From assembly GCA_021731625.1 (NCBI GenBank), contig JAKFXC010000098.1, positions 1-39,571 on the forward strand: a stretch of DNA of 39,571 bases. The letters run 5' to 3'. This DNA is from Candidatus Omnitrophota bacterium (GTDB taxonomy: Bacteria; Omnitrophota; Gorgyraeia; Zapsychrales; Fredricksoniimonadaceae). The notes under the pieces were generated by a model, which was given only the letters and a program-made list of their open reading frames with translations, had not been told where the DNA came from and did no database searches. The position numbers and the translations under genes are program-made. The first letter of the stretch is position 1, and each line of letters opens with the position of its first letter. Below, piece after piece: positions 183 through 36,263 of this stretch.

Positions 183-3100
183 ATGATCAAAAGCAGTATT
201 TCAGCCGTGATTTTATTGGCTTTCGTGACAAACACAATGCCTCTGGGCCATGCCCAGGGCATCTCGGATCTACCGGTTCCAGGGGCCATGGTCAACTTAA
301 GCCCTGCCTATGAACCGGTGCTGATCAAGGGATTAAAGGTCGACCTGCAGGACCCCTTTAACTTTGATTTTATTGTCGACACCGGCCACACCGGCTTAAG
401 CCCCGCCGACCCCTTATTAAAGGAAGAGTCCCGTAAATTAATCAAATACTTTTTGGCGGCCATCACCCTGCCGGAGAAGGATTTATGGGTCAACCTTTCT
501 CCCTATGAAAAAGACCGCATGATCCCCGAGAATCTGGGGCAGACCGAAATGGGCCGCGACTTGCTGGCTCAGGACTACATTTTGAAACAATTGACCGCTT
601 CGCTGATTTATCCAGAAAAAGAGCTGGGCAAAGCATTTTGGGACCGGGTCTACGGCAAGGCCCGGCAGGTCTACGGCAGTGCCGAGGTCCCGGTCAATAC
701 CTTTCATAAAGTCTGGATTGTGGCGGAACGGGCGGATGTGTTTGAAAAAGCGGGGGCCGCGTATGTGACTGGGGCGCATTTGAAAGTCATGATGGACGAG
801 GACTATCTGGCACTGACTAGGAACGCCACCGGCGCAATCCCCTTAAGCGCTACGGCTGCCTCCCAAGTCATGCGCCAAATTGTCCTCCCGGAAATCGAAA
901 AGGAAGTCAACTTTGGCAAGAATTTTGCGCCTTTGCGGCAGATGTTTTATGCCATGATTCTATCCAGCTGGTACAAAATGGCGCTCAAAGACAGTATCCT
1001 CAGCCAAATTTACGGCAATCAGTCCAAAGTCAAAGCCGGTGTCAACGCCCCCAATCCTGTGGAGACCGCCCAAATTTTTGAACGGTATCTTGCGGCCTAT
1101 AAAAAAGGGGTGTTTAACTATATCAAAGAAGACCTGGACAAAACTCGCCATACGCCGGTGCCTAGAAAATATTTTTCCGGCGGGGCCAATCTGGCCATGC
1201 TGGCCAAGACCCAGGTCCTGCGGCGCCAGCGGGCGGCGGGGGTGTTTCCGCAAAGCGGGCGTTTGATTTCTATCAATACGAAATTACTTTTGGCCAATGA
1301 CCTGGCCATGGCCAAGGGCTCGGATGATTTGAGCAGACTGCTGGACGACGTCCAGGCTAAGATCGCGGCCCCGCAACAAGACGAGTTAGTCACCCTGCTT
1401 GCGGATTTGAGGCAGGCCTTGGCTGCCAAGTACCCAGGCGCGGCCCGCCGGATCAACGGTTATATGGACCAAATTTATACCCTCATCGGGGAGGAGTTTG
1501 CACCATTGGTGCAGGATTTGAGGAAAAAGCTAAGGCAAGAGGGCAGTGATGCGATCGAAGAGGAATTTGATTATCTGTTTTTAGCGCAATTGGATTTTTT
1601 GCAGAACATAATAGAAAATCAAGACGCTAAGGACGTAGTGGGGATATTTCACCAAATCGCCGTGGCCATCAAGCAGGGGGTTTTTCGTGGCCGGGAATAT
1701 GATTGGGCAGATTTTTTTGACAATTTTATTGTTAATGCCCCTATGGCCCTGCTTGTTTTGTTGAATTTTGAAAGAGAAATTCCGGCAAAACAGCGTTTTT
1801 CCGGCAAAGTGGTCATGGCATTGTTGGAGGGTTCGCAAAATGAGCTTGCGTTTCGGACCCGATTAGAGAGTTACCACAGGATCCGCTTAGCACACCGGGA
1901 CTTTTCTCCAGACAACATCCTGAAGCGGGTCAATGAGATGAGCGGCCGCGAATTAAGCCGCAAGGACTACCGTCCCGTTAGTAAAATGAGAGAGCATGCG
2001 ATGATCGCCGCACCTGTGAAGGACAACCGCCATGCCGATAGCCCCACTACGAAGGGCTATTCTAGGAAGGGATCCTCGGAGGCTGGTGAAGGACCGGATG
2101 CTGACTTTGACGATGCCATGACCACGGAAGGTTTATCGAAGGAAAAAATCAAATGGCTCGAGATAGGCCAAGAATATTATCCGTCGGTGGATGTTAAGCA
2201 TGTTCTCAAGCAGGTCAATAAGGCAACCACGAATCCAGGCATTATTAATATGGAAACAGGTAGTGTTCGTGGGGGTGTGATCCCCGTGCTGGCTGTGGCG
2301 CCGGCGGCCCTTACAGAGTATGAACGCGAGATATTGACCGCGCTCGTAGAACACAGGCTGTTTCCCAAGGGACTTGACGGGTTAGTCGAAGGGTTAGTAC
2401 CGGATTTTTTTAAATTGCATATTGTCTCAACCACTCAGGGGTCTTTTTGGGTCATGTCATTTAAGAGGAGCCCTCTTTCTGAAGCTGAAGCAAGGTTATT
2501 GGAACGTAAATTTGCGGTGGTCAAGGAACGCTACCAGAAGTTGTTCCGTGCTCTTCCAGACCCGGCTATGGCGTCAGAACTCCCAGGACCCGCCGACATT
2601 CAAGCGGCGGCTTGGAAAAGGTCCATAGGGGGTTTCAGACCGTGGGCCTGGAAAAAATTCACTCAACCAGATTTTCTCGAGGCCTATATAAAAATGGTCA
2701 ATTCCAAAGCTGCGGAACTGGGGGACATCGGCAGAATTAGGCAATTAATTCATAAGATTGCTAACGATGACAACTATGGTAAATTTGGTGGCCCGGGCCG
2801 TACGCACAATTGGACGGCCTTTATGACAAAATTTAACCGACCGAGAGACTTAGAAGACGTGCTGGAAGCCATTGTCACATTTGAAACAAACCAGACGGGG
2901 CATCAGTATAGCATTGACTTTCCCGAGGTTGAGCGTATTGTCATGGACGCCGAAAATGTCACGCAAGCCATGGCCCGTCTGGCTTTGCTGAACGCTGATC
3001 TTATGGGCAATTCTCGCCAAAGGTACAGCTACGAAGCGTTCATGGACAAACACCACTTCACAGCTTCGACCGGCCGCGAACCGGCCATGATTGCCGGTGA

Positions 3101-3290
3101 ATTTGACCCCGGCGGTATTGATTTAAACCGCGCCCGCATGCAGCTTAATGTGCAGAAGCAAGGCGCCGGGGTGCCCCGCCCATTTGACCCCATCATGCTG
3201 GAAAACATGCGCAAAGACCTCAAAGGCATGGATTTCGAGATCCGCAGCATGGCTCCCGTGGTTGATTTGCCCATGTTCATGGGTGTGTGA
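183..3290 (+). CDS. Large exported protein of unknown function, copy 1
   Basis: A 1035-residue protein with an N-terminal signal peptide (MIKSS, then a hydrophobic core, cleavage near GHA/QG at about 24-25), so it is exported. Residues about 45-360 align by eye with the product of 33515-36263: shared blocks include KGLxVD, FxFxxDTGxTGL, KYFLAAxTxP, YEKDR, TEMGRDLLAQDY, PVNTFxKVWIV, MxDEDYLA and PRKYxSGG. The middle and C-terminal parts diverge, but both copies end with a GGIDL motif. I recognise this as a family repeated in Omnitrophota but know no function. The DTG in the conserved block recalls aspartic proteases, but the surrounding sequence gives no support for that. It is monocistronic: its own promoter is upstream and a new promoter with a hairpin follows. 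Confidence 0.8.
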   Translation: MIKSSISAVILLAFVTNTMPLGHAQGISDLPVPGAMVNLSPAYEPVLIKGLKVDLQDPFNFDFIVDTGHTGLSPADPLLKEESRKLIKYFLAAITLPEKDLWVNLSPYEKDRMIPENLGQTEMGRDLLAQDYILKQLTASLIYPEKELGKAFWDRVYGKARQVYGSAEVPVNTFHKVWIVAERADVFEKAGAAYVTGAHLKVMMDEDYLALTRNATGAIPLSATAASQVMRQIVLPEIEKEVNFGKNFAPLRQMFYAMILSSWYKMALKDSILSQIYGNQSKVKAGVNAPNPVETAQIFERYLAAYKKGVFNYIKEDLDKTRHTPVPRKYFSGGANLAMLAKTQVLRRQRAAGVFPQSGRLISINTKLLLANDLAMAKGSDDLSRLLDDVQAKIAAPQQDELVTLLADLRQALAAKYPGAARRINGYMDQIYTLIGEEFAPLVQDLRKKLRQEGSDAIEEEFDYLFLAQLDFLQNIIENQDAKDVVGIFHQIAVAIKQGVFRGREYDWADFFDNFIVNAPMALLVLLNFEREIPAKQRFSGKVVMALLEGSQNELAFRTRLESYHRIRLAHRDFSPDNILKRVNEMSGRELSRKDYRPVSKMREHAMIAAPVKDNRHADSPTTKGYSRKGSSEAGEGPDADFDDAMTTEGLSKEKIKWLEIGQEYYPSVDVKHVLKQVNKATTNPGIINMETGSVRGGVIPVLAVAPAALTEYEREILTALVEHRLFPKGLDGLVEGLVPDFFKLHIVSTTQGSFWVMSFKRSPLSEAEARLLERKFAVVKERYQKLFRALPDPAMASELPGPADIQAAAWKRSIGGFRPWAWKKFTQPDFLEAYIKMVNSKAAELGDIGRIRQLIHKIANDDNYGKFGGPGRTHNWTAFMTKFNRPRDLEDVLEAIVTFETNQTGHQYSIDFPEVERIVMDAENVTQAMARLALLNADLMGNSRQRYSYEAFMDKHHFTASTGREPAMIAGEFDPGGIDLNRARMQLNVQKQGAGVPRPFDPIMLENMRKDLKGMDFEIRSMAPVVDLPMFMGV

Positions 3291-4623: not shown

Positions 4624-5497
4624 AAGCGGGTTAGTCAAGCTGCCAGCCTGGTTTCACCAGGACTTGCCGGACATGCCCAAGATCAAGGCCATGAAAGAGG
4701 CCCTGCGCGGGGCGCATCTGCACACCGTTTGCGAAAGTGCGCATTGCCCGAACATGGGGCAGTGCTGGGGGCAGGGGGTGGCCACATTTATGATTTTAGG
4801 CGGCACCTGCACGCGGGCCTGCCGTTTTTGCGCGGTGCCGGCCGGCCATGCCGAGGCCGTTGATCCACACGAGCCGCAGCAGGTGGCGCAGGCGGTTGCC
4901 CGTCTGGGACTCAGCTATGTGGTGGTGACATCCGTCGCCCGTGATGATCTTCCTGATGAGGGGGCTGGACATTTTGTGGCGACTATCCAGGCGATCCGGG
5001 CCTTGCAGCGCAATGTGAAGGTTGAGACGCTCATCCCGGATTTTTCGGCTAAAGAAGAGTCGTTGATGGCGCTTAGCGCGGCAGCACCGGAGGTGCTCAG
5101 CCATAATATCGAATGCGTGCGCCGCATATCACCGGCCATCCGGCCCCAGGCCGCCCATGACCGGTCGTTGCACGTGTTGCGCCGTTTTCGCGCATTGACC
5201 AGCGGGGTTTTTATCAAATCGTCCTTCATGGTGGGTTTGGGGGAGAGCGAGCTGGAAGTCATGGGGCTGATGCGCGAGCTTAAAAGTGCCGGCTGCCAGA
5301 TTTTGACCATCGGCCAGTATTTGGCCCCCAGTCAAAAGAGGCGGCATGTGCCCGTCGAGCGGTTTGTGACGCCGGAAGAATTTGAACGCTGGCGCACGAT
5401 CGGCCTGGACATGGGTTTTAATTATGTGGAGAGCGGCCCCTTGGTCAGGAGTTCTTTTATCGCCGAGAAAGGCTATCGGGAGGCCCTCAAATCATGA
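4595..5497 (+). CDS. lipA: Lipoyl synthase
   Basis: A radical SAM enzyme that inserts two sulfurs into octanoyl groups on lipoyl-dependent enzymes. Both iron-sulfur motifs are visible: the auxiliary cluster motif CX4CX5C (CESAHCPNMGQC) and the radical SAM motif CX3CX2C (CTRACRFC). The conserved C-terminal RSS that caps the auxiliary cluster appears as VRSSFIAEKG. The 300-residue length is normal. The chosen ATG lies within def. No octanoyltransferase (lipB, lipM or lplA) is seen in the window, so the octanoyl donor enzyme must be elsewhere. Confidence 0.95.
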   Translation: MRKLAPEKFESGLVKLPAWFHQDLPDMPKIKAMKEALRGAHLHTVCESAHCPNMGQCWGQGVATFMILGGTCTRACRFCAVPAGHAEAVDPHEPQQVAQAVARLGLSYVVVTSVARDDLPDEGAGHFVATIQAIRALQRNVKVETLIPDFSAKEESLMALSAAAPEVLSHNIECVRRISPAIRPQAAHDRSLHVLRRFRALTSGVFIKSSFMVGLGESELEVMGLMRELKSAGCQILTIGQYLAPSQKRRHVPVERFVTPEEFERWRTIGLDMGFNYVESGPLVRSSFIAEKGYREALKS

Positions 5498-6489
5498 AGG
5501 AGCACCTGAAAAATTTTTATTCCTTTTTTTTGCGGTTCGGCATCAGCGGCATTCTTTTGGTGTGGATTTTCACCCACCTTGATTTTCAAGAGATCTGGAT
5601 GGTCATCAAAGGGGCGGACGCCAATTACATCATTGCCGCCGGCCTGGTTTTTTTCGCGATCAACTTCTTGATTTTATGGCGGTGGATGATTGTCATGAAG
5701 GCCCTGGATTTGAAATTCCATTGGAAGAGCGCCTTTCGCTGGTTTTTCTTTGGCCTGTTTTGGAATTTATGCCTACCCACCTCTGTCGGGGGAGATGTGA
5801 TCAAAGGCTTAGGCCTGTCCAAGGAGACCAAGCACAAGCCCAAGGTGTTCGCTTCCATTGTGCTGGATCGCCTTTCCGGTTTTAGTGGGATCGTGATCAT
5901 GTCCGGCTTGGCATTTGTGGGCGGACGGAGCGTCATCGAGAATCCCTGGATCATTGCCTCCATCGCTGCCATGGCCGCAGTTTCCTTGGTCCTGGTGATT
6001 GTGCTGTTTAACCACCGCGTGTTTTCCTGGGTCACCAAGGTGTTTTCGTTATGGCCGAAGGTCACGACGGCATTGATGAGCCTGCATTACGACATTGTGT
6101 TGATGAAAGGCAGGCAGAAAGAAACCGTATATATCATTTTGATATCCATCGCCGCGCAGGTCATGTTGGCCTTCGTCTTTTATTTGACCGCCAAAGGACT
6201 GCATCAAGACTTGCCTTTTAAATATTTTATTATTTTTTCTCCCCTGGTATGTGTGGCAACGGCCTTGCCTTCGATTGGCGGCCTGGGGATACGAGAGTAC
6301 AGCTGGGCCCATTTGTTGTTTGCCGTCGGAGTGGCCAAAGAAATAGGGGTGGGGTTGGCCATCATCAACTCTGGGTTTATGTACATGGTGGGCATCTTGA
6401 TGGGCGGGCTCCTTTATGTCATTGCATTATCTTCTGGACGGGTACAATATCGTCAAGCAAGCGCCCCGCACCTCCGGCCTCACCCTTGA
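5494..6489 (+). CDS. YbhN/LPG-synthase transmembrane-type membrane protein
   Basis: A 331-residue multi-pass membrane protein with about eight hydrophobic segments, overlapping lipA by ATGA. The blocks PTSVGGDVIKGLGL, a conserved DR in SIVLDRLSGF, and PSIGGLGIREYSWA are signatures of the lysylphosphatidylglycerol synthase transmembrane family (UPF0104, YbhN). The soluble aminoacyl-transferase domain of MprF is absent, so it is not predicted to aminoacylate lipids. The family may move or flip lipids or glycans, but the exact substrate cannot be read from sequence. Confidence 0.8.
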   Translation: MKEHLKNFYSFFLRFGISGILLVWIFTHLDFQEIWMVIKGADANYIIAAGLVFFAINFLILWRWMIVMKALDLKFHWKSAFRWFFFGLFWNLCLPTSVGGDVIKGLGLSKETKHKPKVFASIVLDRLSGFSGIVIMSGLAFVGGRSVIENPWIIASIAAMAAVSLVLVIVLFNHRVFSWVTKVFSLWPKVTTALMSLHYDIVLMKGRQKETVYIILISIAAQVMLAFVFYLTAKGLHQDLPFKYFIIFSPLVCVATALPSIGGLGIREYSWAHLLFAVGVAKEIGVGLAIINSGFMYMVGILMGGLLYVIALSSGRVQYRQASAPHLRPHP

Positions 6490-6922
6490 AGAGGGGCGGC
6501 AGCGGTTGCTCTCCTGGATCGACCAGTGTCGGCCGCAGGGCAGTGCACGCAACACTGTTACCGTGGTCTTCGACGGTGACAAAGGCCTGGGCACACATGC
6601 CGGGACTGCAGGCCCCCAAGCGTCGCTCGCCAGCGGACGGGTCATTTTTACCCACGGAGAAAGCGCCGACGACTACATTAAAGCGGAGGTGGAAAAAGCT
6701 GGCAATAAGAAAAGATGTGTGGTGGTCAGCGATGATAAAGATGTGCGGCTGTACACGCGGGCGCTGGGGGCCCAGGTGGTGCGGGTCAAAGAATTTGCGG
6801 GGGATTTATTCGGGAAGCCAAAGGTCCCGGGAAAATCAGGCGTCACTCCCGACGGTAAACACGTTTCTCTGAGCCAGGCGCACAAAATCAACAAAGAACT
6901 GGAAAAGATCTGGCTTAAATGA
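6416..6922 (+). CDS. YacP-like NYN domain ribonuclease
   Basis: A 168-residue cytoplasmic protein matching the YacP/Rae1 NYN (PIN-like) nuclease family. Acidic motifs appear in order: LLDGYNIVK near the start, VVFDGD, ESADDYIK in the middle, and VVSDDKDVR, which together form the usual metal-binding acidic site. Bacillus Rae1 cleaves mRNA on the ribosome, and a similar RNA-decay role is plausible here. The ATG lies 74 bp inside the upstream membrane protein gene, and the stop overlaps mlaE by ATGA. Confidence 0.8.
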   Translation: MSLHYLLDGYNIVKQAPRTSGLTLEEGRQRLLSWIDQCRPQGSARNTVTVVFDGDKGLGTHAGTAGPQASLASGRVIFTHGESADDYIKAEVEKAGNKKRCVVVSDDKDVRLYTRALGAQVVRVKEFAGDLFGKPKVPGKSGVTPDGKHVSLSQAHKINKELEKIWLK

Positions 6923-7689
6923 TTAAAATCATTAAAAATATGGGCGAGCGTGCGGCCTTCATCGGCGAAGCCATATTTTTTCTGGGCAGTATCGTTAAAG
7001 AAATTTTTCGGGGCCGCATCCGTTGGAATGAAGTGCTGGTGCAGATGTACGACCAGGGCGTGCGGTCGATTTTGATTGTGGTGTTGACGTCGCTGGCCTC
7101 CGGGATGGTTTTAGGTTTGCAAGGGTACATCACCCTGCAGCGGTTTGGGGCCAAGGAATTCATTGCCCGGTTGGTGGTGTTGTCGCTCGTCAGGGAGCTG
7201 AGTCCGGTGTTTACCGCGCTCATTTTTTCCGGTAAAGCCGGTGCCGGCATGACCGCCGCTTTAGGTACCATGAACACCAACGACCAGATCCAGGCCACCC
7301 GGGCCATGGGGGTCAACCCCATCGAATTCTTGGTGGTCCCGCGCTTTTTGGCCTGTGTGCTGGTGATGCCGGTGCTGGTCGTCATCTCTGAGATCGTTGG
7401 TATTCTCGGTGGGTATTTGATCGCGGTGAACGAAGCGAATTTGCCCGGCGTGTTTTATATCCGGGAAACCATCCAGTCGGTCACGTTCATCGATTTTTTA
7501 AGCGGGTACATCAAAGTCTTTTTTTTCTCGATCATTGTGGCCTGGATCTGCTGCTACCAGGGTTTTTATACCACCGGTGGTTCGCAGGGGGTGGGGCGGT
7601 TCACCACCAATGCCGTGGCGTATTCTTACATCAGCATCATTGTGTCCAACGTGGTGTTAACGAAAATTATTTTAACCTTATGGGGTTAA
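6919..7689 (+). CDS. mlaE: MlaE-type ABC transporter permease
   Basis: A 256-residue inner-membrane permease of the MlaE family. Family blocks include LVLSLVRELSPVFTALIFSGKAGAGMTAALGTM, the conserved E in the QATRAMGVNPIEFLVVPRF loop, and several hydrophobic helices. With MlaF and MlaD encoded just downstream it forms the core of an MCE system that moves phospholipids between inner and outer membranes. The order here is E, a lipoprotein, F, D. No mlaC, mlaB or mlaA is in the window. Confidence 0.92.
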   Translation: MIKIIKNMGERAAFIGEAIFFLGSIVKEIFRGRIRWNEVLVQMYDQGVRSILIVVLTSLASGMVLGLQGYITLQRFGAKEFIARLVVLSLVRELSPVFTALIFSGKAGAGMTAALGTMNTNDQIQATRAMGVNPIEFLVVPRFLACVLVMPVLVVISEIVGILGGYLIAVNEANLPGVFYIRETIQSVTFIDFLSGYIKVFFFSIIVAWICCYQGFYTTGGSQGVGRFTTNAVAYSYISIIVSNVVLTKIILTLWG

Positions 7690-7690
7690 C

Positions 7691-8047
7691 ATGATCAAAT
7701 GTGCAGACGGACGATTCTTGGCGTGCGCAGCGGCAGGGCTCATTTTGACCCTGGGCGGATGCGCGGGTTCCACCCGCGGTAACAGCGGCCAATTGCAAAG
7801 CTATCCGGCCCCGCTCATTGAAGCAGGGTGGATCCGCAACGGCGAGCCCATCATTTATGAGGGGAAAGAATGGTACCCGGCCCGCGACGTGGAAAACCTC
7901 CTGGACAATGAAGTTTTTCAGATCGGGGAATACCGCGGCGTGCAGATCTTTGTGGACAAAATCGACATCAAGCCCTACGAACGGTTGTACACCAAGTTTG
8001 CCAAGGGCAAATACCGCTACTTTCAAAGGCGTCCGGTCCATGATTAA
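7691..8047 (+). CDS. Small lipoprotein embedded in the mla operon, function unknown
   Basis: A 118-residue protein with a type II signal peptide: a hydrophobic stretch ending in the lipobox LGGC at about residues 21-24, followed by a small polar linker. The mature part has EPIIYEGKEWYPARDVENLL and a basic C-terminus (KGKYRYFQRR). I recognise no domain. It begins one base after mlaE and overlaps mlaF by 8 bp, so it is probably made with the transporter and anchored in a membrane beside it. A periplasmic accessory role is inference from position only. Confidence 0.8.
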   Translation: MIKCADGRFLACAAAGLILTLGGCAGSTRGNSGQLQSYPAPLIEAGWIRNGEPIIYEGKEWYPARDVENLLDNEVFQIGEYRGVQIFVDKIDIKPYERLYTKFAKGKYRYFQRRPVHD

Positions 8048-8759
8048 GATGGAAGATGTTTATAAAAAGTTAGGGCAACAGCAGGTGTTGGCGGGCATCA
8101 GCCTGACCATTGCCGAGGGGGAAATTGTGGTCGTGATGGGCCCCAGCGGCACCGGTAAGACCGTGTTGCTCAAACATTTAAACGGCCTGCTGCATCCGGA
8201 CCGCGGCAGGGTGTTTATTGATGGGGTTGACATCAGCCGTTTGAATGACGAAGACCTGCTGGAAGTGCGCAAGCGCATGGGCTATTTGTTTCAGGAAGGT
8301 GCTTTGTACGATTTTATGGACGTGTTTGACAACGTGGCGTTCCCGTTGCGGGAGCACACCGATTGGTCGGAAGAAAAAATCGCCGATCGCGTGCATGAAG
8401 TTTTGGAGATGGTGGACTTGCATGAGGTGGACCGCAAGCTTCCGTCGGAACTTAGCGGCGGCATGAAAAAAAGGGTGGGCCTGGCCCGCGCCATCGTGCT
8501 GGGCGCGAAAATCCTTTTGTGCGATGAGCCCACCACGGGACTCGACTCCATCCACAGCCGGGACATTTCCAAATTGATCCGGGCTGTGGCCCGCAAAATC
8601 AAGGCCACCACGGTCATTACTTCCCACGACATCGCCAATTCCTTCCGGATTGCCGACCGCCTGGTGCTCATCAATGACGGGCACATCTCGGCCATGGGAA
8701 CCAAAGAAGACATGGATTCTAACCCAGACCCATTTGTGCGGGAGTTTATGCATGCCTAA
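8040..8759 (+). CDS. mlaF: MlaF-type ABC transporter ATPase
   Basis: The ATP-hydrolysing subunit of the Mla lipid transporter, 239 residues. Walker A is GPSGTGKT, the signature is LSGGMKKR, Walker B is ILLCDEPTTGLD, and the H-loop is TSHD. The ORF track starts it at 7818, but that upstream part is an out-of-frame reading of the lipoprotein gene. The ATG at 8040 (MIKMEDVYKKLGQ) gives the normal ABC N-terminus. It overlaps its neighbours by 8 bp on both sides, indicating tight translational coupling. Confidence 0.93.
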   Translation: MIKMEDVYKKLGQQQVLAGISLTIAEGEIVVVMGPSGTGKTVLLKHLNGLLHPDRGRVFIDGVDISRLNDEDLLEVRKRMGYLFQEGALYDFMDVFDNVAFPLREHTDWSEEKIADRVHEVLEMVDLHEVDRKLPSELSGGMKKRVGLARAIVLGAKILLCDEPTTGLDSIHSRDISKLIRAVARKIKATTVITSHDIANSFRIADRLVLINDGHISAMGTKEDMDSNPDPFVREFMHA

Positions 8760-9366
8760 GGACAATGAACGCCCCATGAACAACCATTACCTGAGGAACA
8801 CCGTCGCCGGCTTGTTTTTCGTCATCGGGCTGGTGTTGATTGCCACCATCGTGTTTTGGATCGGGCTGGAGCGCGGCATGACTCAGCCCAAGTTCCAGGT
8901 CATTGCTCTTTTTAACCAGGTCAGCGGCCTGGTCGAGGGGGCGCCCATCCGCATTTCGGGCATCAATGTGGGGGTCGTCGGCGGGATCAATTTCCTGGAT
9001 GAACCCATTGAGGGGCGCAGTTTAAAAGTCACCATGAATATTTTTAAGAAGTACGAGGTTCAGTTCCGCAAATGCGCGCGCCTGAGCATCAAAACCGAAG
9101 GGGTGCTGGGCCAGAAATTGGTGGAAATCAGCGAAGACCATTCCCGGAAATTTTTTGATGTGACCAAACCGATCATCGGCGAAGACCCCTTAGACGTCGA
9201 GAACATGGCGGCCGTGATTACCCGCACCGCTCTGTCTTTGAAAACGACCAGCGACAATGCGGACAGCGTCATGCTGGACCTTAAAGAGGCGGCCCGCAAG
9301 ACCAAACGCCTCATCAACCGCATTGAGGAGCAGATCATCGCGGGGGATTTGTTTAAGATTTTTTAG
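8752..9366 (+). CDS. mlaD: MlaD-like MCE domain protein
   Basis: The substrate-binding subunit of the Mla complex, 204 residues. One N-terminal membrane helix (AGLFFVIGLVLIATIVFWIG) is followed by a single MCE domain: FNQVSGLVEGAPIRISGINVG, then SIKTEGVLGQKLVEIS. The C-terminal part is predicted helical. The start at 8752 (MPKDNERPM) replaces the ORF-track start at 8650, which runs through mlaF. Single-MCE proteins of this size form hexameric rings in the periplasm. Confidence 0.9.
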   Translation: MPKDNERPMNNHYLRNTVAGLFFVIGLVLIATIVFWIGLERGMTQPKFQVIALFNQVSGLVEGAPIRISGINVGVVGGINFLDEPIEGRSLKVTMNIFKKYEVQFRKCARLSIKTEGVLGQKLVEISEDHSRKFFDVTKPIIGEDPLDVENMAAVITRTALSLKTTSDNADSVMLDLKEAARKTKRLINRIEEQIIAGDLFKIF

Positions 9367-9395
9367 CAACGCACCGGCTCATTGAGGGAGGGTCT

Positions 9396-33514: not shown

Positions 33515-35155
33515 ATGTTTAAACTCATCAAATTCCTGCTGGCGCTGGTTTTTCTATTTAACGGCCTACCCTGGTTTACGGCCCAGGCCCAAGGGATTGT
33601 GCTGCCCTCCCCAGGTGTTCGATTTGAATTAACCAAACCCTACATGCCGGTCATGGTCAAAGGCCTGATCGTTGATCCCAAAGAACCGCTCAAATTCGAA
33701 TTTTTGATCGATTCCGGCGACACGGGCCTGAAGGGCGAGGCCCTAAAACCCGAATCCATGAAATTGATGAAGTATTTCTTGGCGGCCATGACCATACCCG
33801 ACGAGGAGATGTGGGTCAATCTGTTGCCTTACGAAAAAGACCGCATCATTGCCAAAAGTTTCGGTGAAACGGAAATGGGCCGCGATTTGCTGGCCCAGGA
33901 TTATGTCCTCAAGCAATTGGTTGCTTCATTGACGTATCCGGAGGGGGAAATGGGTAAAAAATTTTGGGACCGGGTGGGCATGGTTCCCGTCAATACGTTT
34001 AATAAAGTTTGGATCGTACCGTCTAAAGCCGAGATTTTTGAAAATAGCAAGGGTGCTTTTGTGATGGACGCACACATGAAAGTGATGCTAGATGAAGATT
34101 ACCTGGCGTTTACTAACAACAACAAAACGTCCCCGAAGGGGACCACCAATACCAAGGCCCAACATACCACGGCCTCCGACATGGTACGCCAGCTGATTGT
34201 CCCGGCCATTGAAAAGGAAGTCAACGAAGGCGAACATTTTGCCAATTTACGGCAGATTTACCAGGCCATGATTTTGGCCACCTGGTATAAGATCCGATTA
34301 AAAGAAAGTATACTGGGAAAGTTTTATGTGGACCGTCATAAAACCAGAGGTGTGGCAGTCGCGGACAGTGGGGGGAATGAGCGGATTTATCAGCAGTATC
34401 TAGCAGCCTTCAAAAGAGGAGCTTATAACTATATTAGGGAAGAGGTCGATCCCTTGACCAACGCAATGATTCCTCGTAAATATATTTCCGGCGGTTTTGA
34501 TTCAGCCCTACTGGCCAAAGTTGTCAATGCAGGATTAAAAAAAGGAGACCCGGTCTTGACTCCGCATGGGGACCTGGCCATGGTGAAGGCGGAAGCCCGT
34601 GCCAATCACCCACATGAGGATGCGGTCAAGGCGCTTTATGAATCGGTCCGCACATATGAACGCAAACTTTTAAAACGGTGGAGAATGCATCAATTCGAAG
34701 TGTTTTATTATCCCGCCCTTGGAGTTTATGAAAAAAGATTAAGTGAACAACAGCTTTGGGTTTTAGAATCCGTTCGTTTAGCCCAGGCACGTTTAGACGG
34801 TTTGGTGGCGGATTTCGTGTTCTTTAAGGACGGCCATGAATGGGTAATGCTGCAGACAGCGGTGGAACCGCTTGACCGCGTGTTAAAGAAAGAGAAACAT
34901 GCCGCGGTCGTCGACGATCTCTTGGAACAAGTGCTTGAATTAAATACCCGCATGATCAGCCGCGGGGTCCTGCATTGGGACAATCGCATGAGCAATTATG
35001 GCGTCATCGATGGAGAAGACGGTAAGAGAAAAGTGGTTCTCCTGGATCTTGGTGGTTTATTTGACCTGCATGGGGACAATGCGCATTCGTCCTTGCGATG
35101 GGAGAGCATCACGTTTAAACGATTATTGGGGCATAGGGGTACGCCTTGGACTTAA
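33515..35155 (+). CDS. Large exported protein, copy 2, first part; contains a kinase-like signature
   Basis: The first 546 residues of a paralogue of the 183-3290 protein. A signal peptide (LIKFLLALVFLFNGLPW, cleavage near AQA/QG) is followed by about 330 residues that match copy 1. Unlike copy 1, residues about 390-540 look kinase-like: a hinge-like VMLQTAVEPLD, a helix LLEQVLELNTRM, then GVLHWDNRMSNYG near 487 and VVLLDLGGLFDL near 511, matching the HxDxxxxN and DxG catalytic motifs of protein kinases and aminoglycoside phosphotransferases. A frameshift near 35128-35139 then truncates the frame at TAA 35153. If real, it is a secreted kinase-like enzyme; the sequence alone does not prove activity. 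Confidence 0.75.
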   Translation: MFKLIKFLLALVFLFNGLPWFTAQAQGIVLPSPGVRFELTKPYMPVMVKGLIVDPKEPLKFEFLIDSGDTGLKGEALKPESMKLMKYFLAAMTIPDEEMWVNLLPYEKDRIIAKSFGETEMGRDLLAQDYVLKQLVASLTYPEGEMGKKFWDRVGMVPVNTFNKVWIVPSKAEIFENSKGAFVMDAHMKVMLDEDYLAFTNNNKTSPKGTTNTKAQHTTASDMVRQLIVPAIEKEVNEGEHFANLRQIYQAMILATWYKIRLKESILGKFYVDRHKTRGVAVADSGGNERIYQQYLAAFKRGAYNYIREEVDPLTNAMIPRKYISGGFDSALLAKVVNAGLKKGDPVLTPHGDLAMVKAEARANHPHEDAVKALYESVRTYERKLLKRWRMHQFEVFYYPALGVYEKRLSEQQLWVLESVRLAQARLDGLVADFVFFKDGHEWVMLQTAVEPLDRVLKKEKHAAVVDDLLEQVLELNTRMISRGVLHWDNRMSNYGVIDGEDGKRKVVLLDLGGLFDLHGDNAHSSLRWESITFKRLLGHRGTPWT

Positions 35156-36263
35156 AAAACAATTTAGAGACAAATCCGTTGCCCACGGGTTTGCCCATAC
35201 GTCATCGTATTTTTTATTTAAACGGCACCGCAGGGAAGTTATGGAGAAGACCGTTTTGCGTATTGTGAGCTTAGCAAGGGAAAATTATCAGCCGCTCAAT
35301 CCTCAAAAGTCTGCCGCGCACATCGCAGAACGGATCAAAGATTTTGGGCGTGGGCATGATTTGCGTGAACGCTTTGCCCAAAGCAGCGATGGGGCCATGT
35401 GGTCCGCAGAATGGAACCGGGTGCTATCAGGACCTCACCGTTTTTTTCTCTCTGATGTAGTGCGCGTGGAGCAAGGTTCAGCAGAGATGATAAAATTTGT
35501 GGAAAAATATGTCCACAATCCCTCGATGTTTTACGCATCGATCTATAGCTTACAGCCGGGCCAGCCGATGCCCAGGACGAAATTGTCTGAGGGTTTTTTT
35601 AAATTACTTAAGAAATACAAATTGGTTGACGACCACATGGTTTTATCGGAGCAAGCCAGGCATCTCATGCAAGCATTTATTCAAAAAAAGCAGACAACAT
35701 ACGCTTTTAGGCCGATTAGAGTGACGATAGCCGATGGGGTAAAAGTCAGCCCCTTGGTTCTGTTAAAAGCCATAAATAAATTCGGCCGGCTCACTGAGAT
35801 CGAATTGCAAATGCGGGTCTCTCAGATACGCGCTATTGAAAACCCCTTTCAATATAAACATGCGGAAAACAGAGGGCTGCAACGGTTTATTGAGGGGGAC
35901 TACAAGGCCTTTCAAGATTTTCAAAAAATTGTGGCAGTGACCATACGAGAAACATCCGAAGGAGGAGTGTCCTCCTATAAATTTGTTGAGCCAAAAATCA
36001 CTGTTGACGAGGACCTAGCGATGCAGCGGCTCATGGCGCGCGCCCCCGACAACACCGGCGGTATCGATTTAGACGCCGGCAACCTGGAGCTCCAGATCAA
36101 GCGGGACGGCCGGGGCATGCCTTTGCCTGCCAAGCATCAGGATCTGGCCCAGAGGAGCATTGACGCCCTTTACCCGACGATCTTGACGATTACCCCCATC
36201 ACGCACCCGGAGGATGTTTTAGGCCACAATAGCTCTTTACATTCCCCGGGCCGATCGTTATAA
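35127..36263 (+). pseudogene. Large exported protein, copy 2, continuation in the next frame
   Basis: The reading frame continues one base forward at two adjacent G4 tracts (35128-35131 and 35136-35139). Deleting one G gives KRLLGIGVRLGLKKQFRDKSV without interruption, so the two ORFs are one gene of about 916 residues. The tail ends with GGIDLDAGNLELQIKRDG, matching GGIDLNRARMQLNVQ at the end of copy 1. The ORF track's 34998 start is an out-of-frame reading of the first part. The cause could be a sequencing error, a genuine pseudogene or a +1 programmed shift; these cannot be told apart here. Its stop codon lies in the hisG -10 box. Confidence 0.72.

Follow-up and report, generated by a model that had tools for sequence, protein, structure and literature searches.

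A divergent AceK-like kinase-fold domain is carried as cargo by a predicted Sec-exported modular protein in Omnitrophota

The window, a 39,571-nucleotide stretch of DNA from a Candidatus Omnitrophota bacterium, encodes two members of a large modular protein family, here termed copy 1 and copy 2. Copy 2 is best explained as a modular protein that is exported by Sec and carries, as the first of its cargoes, a divergent kinase-fold domain of AceK type, with proposed processing and extracytoplasmic phosphotransfer, and we place the probability of this reading at roughly 0.6. Computational analysis of the locus and its relatives established a kinase fold, an Asp/Asn/Asp triad in AceK register, a signal peptide, and a repeated architecture bordered by D-x-A-M motifs. 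An earlier note on this DNA had interpreted copy 2 as an exported kinase-like enzyme, an interpretation that is partly supported by the results below.

Copy 2 is located on the forward strand at 33515..36263 and encodes a read-through product of ~916 aa. The first open reading frame (33515-35155, 546 aa) has no natural end, and homologous sequence resumes in the +1 frame from ~35133 to 36263, with the frame break (35123..35144) falling around a GGGG run at 35129. For the read-through, GGGC was taken as G to join the frames, and in relatives the two frames correspond to a single uninterrupted architecture. The break may represent either a sequencing error or a true mutation.

All features of copy 2 lie on the same strand. 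The protein begins with a Sec signal peptide (MFKLIKFLLALVFLFNGLPWFTAQA followed by QG; 33515..33589), recognized by its sequence, hydrophobic core, and AxA-type site, and continues into a conserved N-module (33590..34495) that ends in IPRKYISGG and recurs in ~57 paralogues of the same genome. Two D-x-A-M boundary motifs, GDLAM (34568..34582) on the 5' side and SSDGAM (35382..35399) on the 3' side, bracket a kinase-like block of ~265-270 residues. This AceK-like kinase-fold cargo (34580..35390) was delineated by profile, model, and fold search, and continues in the +1 frame after 35133. A second cargo without a Pfam match follows (35400..36011), and a third boundary motif, DEDLAM (36006..36023), precedes the C-terminal GGIDLD module (36051..36263), which matches the ends of at least 10 paralogues.

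The earlier note had drawn attention to an HxDxxxxN and DxG motif pair, and the pair is indeed present in copy 2. The catalytic loop GVLHWDNRMSNYG (residues 484-496; 34964..35002) contains the Asp at 34979-34981 and the Asn at 34994-34996 and aligns with GDMLFKNFG of AceK, while VVLLDLGGLF (residues 507-516; 35033..35062) forms the DxG metal-binding motif, the Asp of which (35045-35047) is invariant in relatives and aligns with AceK Asp475. The pair arose in 0 of 300 shuffles of the copy 2 open reading frame, and HxDxxxxN followed by DxG was found once in the family versus 0.10 expected by shuffling. HxDxxxxN alone was found 4 times across the 57 paralogues versus 2.5 expected, a difference that is not significant, and the motif, being near chance in the family, was judged too slight a basis for calling a kinase. 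That count would suit a chance resemblance, a reading that is scarcely credible since it is contradicted by the agreement of profile, conservation, structure prediction, and fold search. Weak as the motif is when taken by itself, the copy 2 domain is a real kinase-fold domain.

Copy 1 (183..3290, forward strand) is a paralogue that shares the N-module and GGID module of copy 2; no kinase domain was detected in it. The sequence HRDFSPDNIL occurs in copy 1 at 1893-1922. Copy 1 was considered as a second kinase and rejected, having no kinase-profile match and no DxG after HRDFSPDN, which agrees with the prior observation that it lacks an equivalent motif pair.

A single-sequence search with the copy 2 domain yielded relatives that were weak but convergent, and a five-sequence kinase profile found matches in 70 of 384 genomes of the phylum at E<=0.1. 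Among 32 distinct relatives (E<=1e-3), the catalytic Asp was kept in 24, the catalytic-loop Asn in 28, the DxG Asp in all 32, and the DxG Gly in 25. The HxD His was kept in just 2 of the 32, although copy 2 itself reads HWD, and the family therefore lacks the conserved His of a Hanks-type HRD. Thus the conservation anticipated for the D, N, and D residues held, but that of the His did not. A leave-out profile, built from relatives without the window and L106 sequences, recovered both the window domain (1.3e-17) and AceK (3.5e-4). When a 24-sequence profile was compared with PDB sequences, AceK was the best single-domain match (9.3e-5), followed by numerous protein kinases whose catalytic loops aligned in register. 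PPR matches in the PDB profile searches were rejected as repeat artefacts, being sums of sub-threshold copies.

A template-free AlphaFold2 model of the kinase domain, built from a 24-sequence alignment, reached pTM 0.69; most core blocks scored pLDDT 83-94, and the tails were weak. The model displays the bilobal kinase order of b1-b3, aC, b4-b5, hinge, aD, aE, catalytic loop, b7-b8, and DxG, with the N-lobe extending to ~34850 and the C-lobe beyond. VMLQTAVEPLD (34844..34876), previously guessed to be hinge-like and accompanied by a helix, forms a hinge in the model, flanked by strand b5 and helix aD, and the catalytic loop comes after a long aE helix. A candidate b3 lysine in VYEKRL (34733..34735) falls in model strand b3 and corresponds to the VxK of relatives, and a candidate aC glutamate in VLESVRL (34766..34768) is within model helix 62-77 and is common to some relatives. 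Both candidates occupy the right model elements, with an N-lobe alignment that is ambiguous. A Foldseek search of the model against the PDB returned 600 matches at E<=1e-3, and the best 50 of these were all kinase-domain proteins, with AceK first (E 6e-7). Searched against a viral library, the model likewise matched mostly protein kinases. Foldseek TM-scores were modest (0.35-0.47), and no Pfam or NCBIfam family matched copy 2 when the window proteins were searched; both results count against the preferred reading. A PHROGs search returned no match for the window kinase. Profile, structure prediction, and fold search nevertheless all support the kinase fold.

The profile alignment to E. coli AceK places the copy 2 catalytic Asp, Asn, and DxG Asp at AceK Asp457, Asn462, and Asp475. 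In AceK these residues (D457, N462, and D475) form the catalytic triad, and their mutation abolishes kinase activity (PMC3747045). Similar to most relatives of the copy 2 kinase domain, AceK has no His at the HxD position, and its loop FPGDMLFKNFG is close to FPKDAKFANFG and FPIDIKFKNFG of relatives. This AceK-type FP-x-D-x-x-F-x-N-F-G loop is common to close relatives, whereas copy 2 has HW in place of FP. Copy 2 further differs from AceK in its DLG (versus DYDE), in the absence of the AceK regulatory domain, and in its predicted export. The AceK family model PF06315 gave no significant Pfam match for copy 2, and the relative L136 scored 0.0014, below the cut-off. Because the family model does not match and the regulatory domain is absent, the domain is named AceK-like; it is not an AceK.

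Hanks-type Ser/Thr kinases, PRPK/Bud32, and RIO kinases gave fold matches of 1e-6 to 1e-5 and have the Asp, Asn, and DxG in common with copy 2. Compared with these groups, however, the family has no conserved HRD, and copy 2 has neither a glycine-rich loop nor a Pfam match. APH and Fam20 share the logic of the kinase superfamily with the copy 2 domain, and Fam20 is also reported to act in a secretory pathway (PMC7948968). Both were absent from the best 50 of the 600 fold matches and from the PDB sequence matches listed, and no Pfam APH or Fam20 match was found for copy 2. The bilobal fold expected by the earlier note was thus recovered, but not the suggested kinship with APH or Fam20, the nearest solved relative being AceK. 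The domain might still be a small-molecule phosphotransferase of the APH type rather than a protein kinase, given a fold and triad common to both, a small domain, and a substrate that cannot be read from sequence. We consider this quite unlikely, as the nearest match in both sequence and fold is AceK, a protein kinase, and no APH family matched.

The b1-b2 turn of copy 2 reads RMHQ, and the glycine-rich loop is missing, whereas several kinase-domain relatives possess one (e.g. IGGGEQ). The window copy may be inactive because of this missing loop and the frame break, and its own kinase activity is doubtful. The domain could accordingly be a pseudokinase, with the kinase fold kept as a binding or scaffold module and the gene a degrading pseudogene. 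In addition to the break at ~35129 and the missing loop, the catalytic Asp is lost in 8 of 32 relatives, and KPDG and NPHG stand at the catalytic loop of L133 and L134, respectively, two relatives from the exported family. On the other hand, copy 2 keeps the Asp, Asn, DxG, and the candidate b3 Lys and aC Glu, and the triad is kept in most relatives, so we regard decay as unlikely, though a serious possibility.

The ~57 paralogues, including copies 1 and 2, are encoded in a genome of 2.28 Mb and form a lineage-specific modular family in which a signal peptide is followed by an N-module of ~300 aa with PRKYxSGG at its end, then by a middle part that varies, and usually by a GGID[LF] C-module. 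They are located at loci L011-L053 of genome G000 and in the window at 183-3290 and 33515-36263, and their cargo is unrelated among copies. Among the 43 paralogues with an anchorable N-terminus, a strong hydrophobic core is seen in 41, and an AxA-type site likewise in 41. Export, as proposed in the earlier note, is therefore supported by a Sec-type signal in copy 2 and in nearly all 57 paralogues. After the N-module, D.AM was observed 120 times versus 5.7 expected from shuffled post-N-module sequence, and D-x-A-M often stands shortly after SGG and directly before GGID. In some kinase-bearing relatives outside the paralogue family the motif is sparse or absent, which counts against the preferred reading, and for this reason its role as a cleavage site is only putative. 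The AF2 model of the N-module was confident (pLDDT 82.6) and had no PDB fold match at E<=0.001; the N-module also had no Pfam match and no PDB sequence match. The N-module was found in 37 of 145 sampled genomes of the phylum and was most abundant in the family of the window genome.

Kinase cargo is not restricted to copy 2. An N-module and a kinase-like cargo were combined in one protein in genomes G055, G060, G011, G016, G009, and G052, and this exported framework also holds a Hanks kinase in G019 (Pfam Pkinase, 40.4 bits versus a cut-off of 31.7) and a UbiB-like kinase in G082. In the window's own genome, L022:3885-4667(-) encodes a second kinase-like cargo (profile E 7e-4), for which Pfam names none, with a glycine-rich loop (LGRGGNGLVYAF; GRGGNGLVYAF) and a VK lysine (QAVKAN). 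Kinase-fold domains hence recur in this framework, at odds with the view of copy 2 as rare and isolated. L064:5845-12909(+) encodes an exported-framework protein of 2,355 aa, a beads-on-a-string arrangement in which segments resembling kinases and HAD proteins (VFDWDDT) occur together with seven D-x-A-M motifs. Other kinase-profile matches fall in open frames of very large size in which no N-module was detected, and export is therefore supported for only part of the kinase-domain family. AceK-like kinase domains recur in many giant frames of up to 39,957 aa, for example G334:C62 (39,957 aa), G125:C5 (25,332 aa), and G372:C22 (16,193 aa). Giant Omnitrophota open reading frames are reported to have few annotated domains, and a term search of that report on the same phylum found no discussion of signal peptides, polyproteins, or paralogues (PMC10066038).

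By Pfam, paralogue cargoes include aldolase, TIM, and GAPDH, and the TIM cargo has an intact active-site motif (AYEPIWAIGTG). Further cargoes are response regulators, HATPase, an SNF2-type domain, and a glycoside hydrolase. The exported-framework copies of fructose-bisphosphate aldolase and TIM adjoin, with GAPDH elsewhere (L014:1237-3753 and 5421-9377; L012:1286-4321). Free-standing, ordinary TIM and GAPDH genes are also present in the genome, and the exported TIM and GAPDH copies are therefore extra. Cytosolic-type cargoes such as aldolase, TIM, GAPDH, response regulator, HATPase, and SNF2, some needing NAD or ATP, could instead suggest that the protein does not function outside the cytoplasm, with its N-terminal region targeting an internal compartment or the cytoplasmic membrane face. 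Such a location is improbable considering the separate TIM and GAPDH genes and the hydrophobic signal with an AxA site directly before Q/G in nearly all paralogues.

These data are most simply read as enzyme-like cargo being delivered beyond the cytoplasm and processed at D-x-A-M. In the proposed mechanism, Sec would export an intact form of copy 2, targeting or anchoring may fall to the N-module and GGID module, and a protease cutting at or near D-x-A-M would release the cargo. The released kinase-fold domain would then transfer phosphate to a protein or small molecule, such that copy 2 may phosphorylate its target outside the cytoplasm. ATP is normally absent there, which counts against this explanation; possibly, the site of action is the inside or the surface of a host or prey cell, with ATP available there. 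Predation or symbiosis has been proposed for Omnitrophota in the giant-frame report (PMC10066038), and such a lifestyle would supply both a target and ATP for the exported cargo.

Bacterial kinases acting outside the cytoplasm are, to our knowledge, rarely documented, and Omnitrophota are not known beyond genomes and a small number of enrichment cultures. The present results describe AceK-related kinase domains as a family that spans the phylum, in part within a framework clearly predicted to be exported, and that is open to cloning and testing. Furthermore, the large exported protein family of Omnitrophota appears to be undescribed within open-licence PubMed Central, where the literature search likewise found no description of such an export system, and the AceK-like domains offer annotation for part of the poorly annotated giant proteins of this phylum. 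With a confidence falling somewhat short of even odds, we tentatively suggest that Omnitrophota of this order may possess an export system comprising dozens of Sec-exported polyproteins per genome, each with a novel-fold N-module, a GGID C-module, and swappable cargo flanked by D-x-A-M processing motifs. Such a system would carry copies of enzymes that are otherwise intracellular (AceK-like, Hanks, and UbiB kinases and glycolytic enzymes) to the periplasm, to the surface of the cell, or to a host or prey cell.
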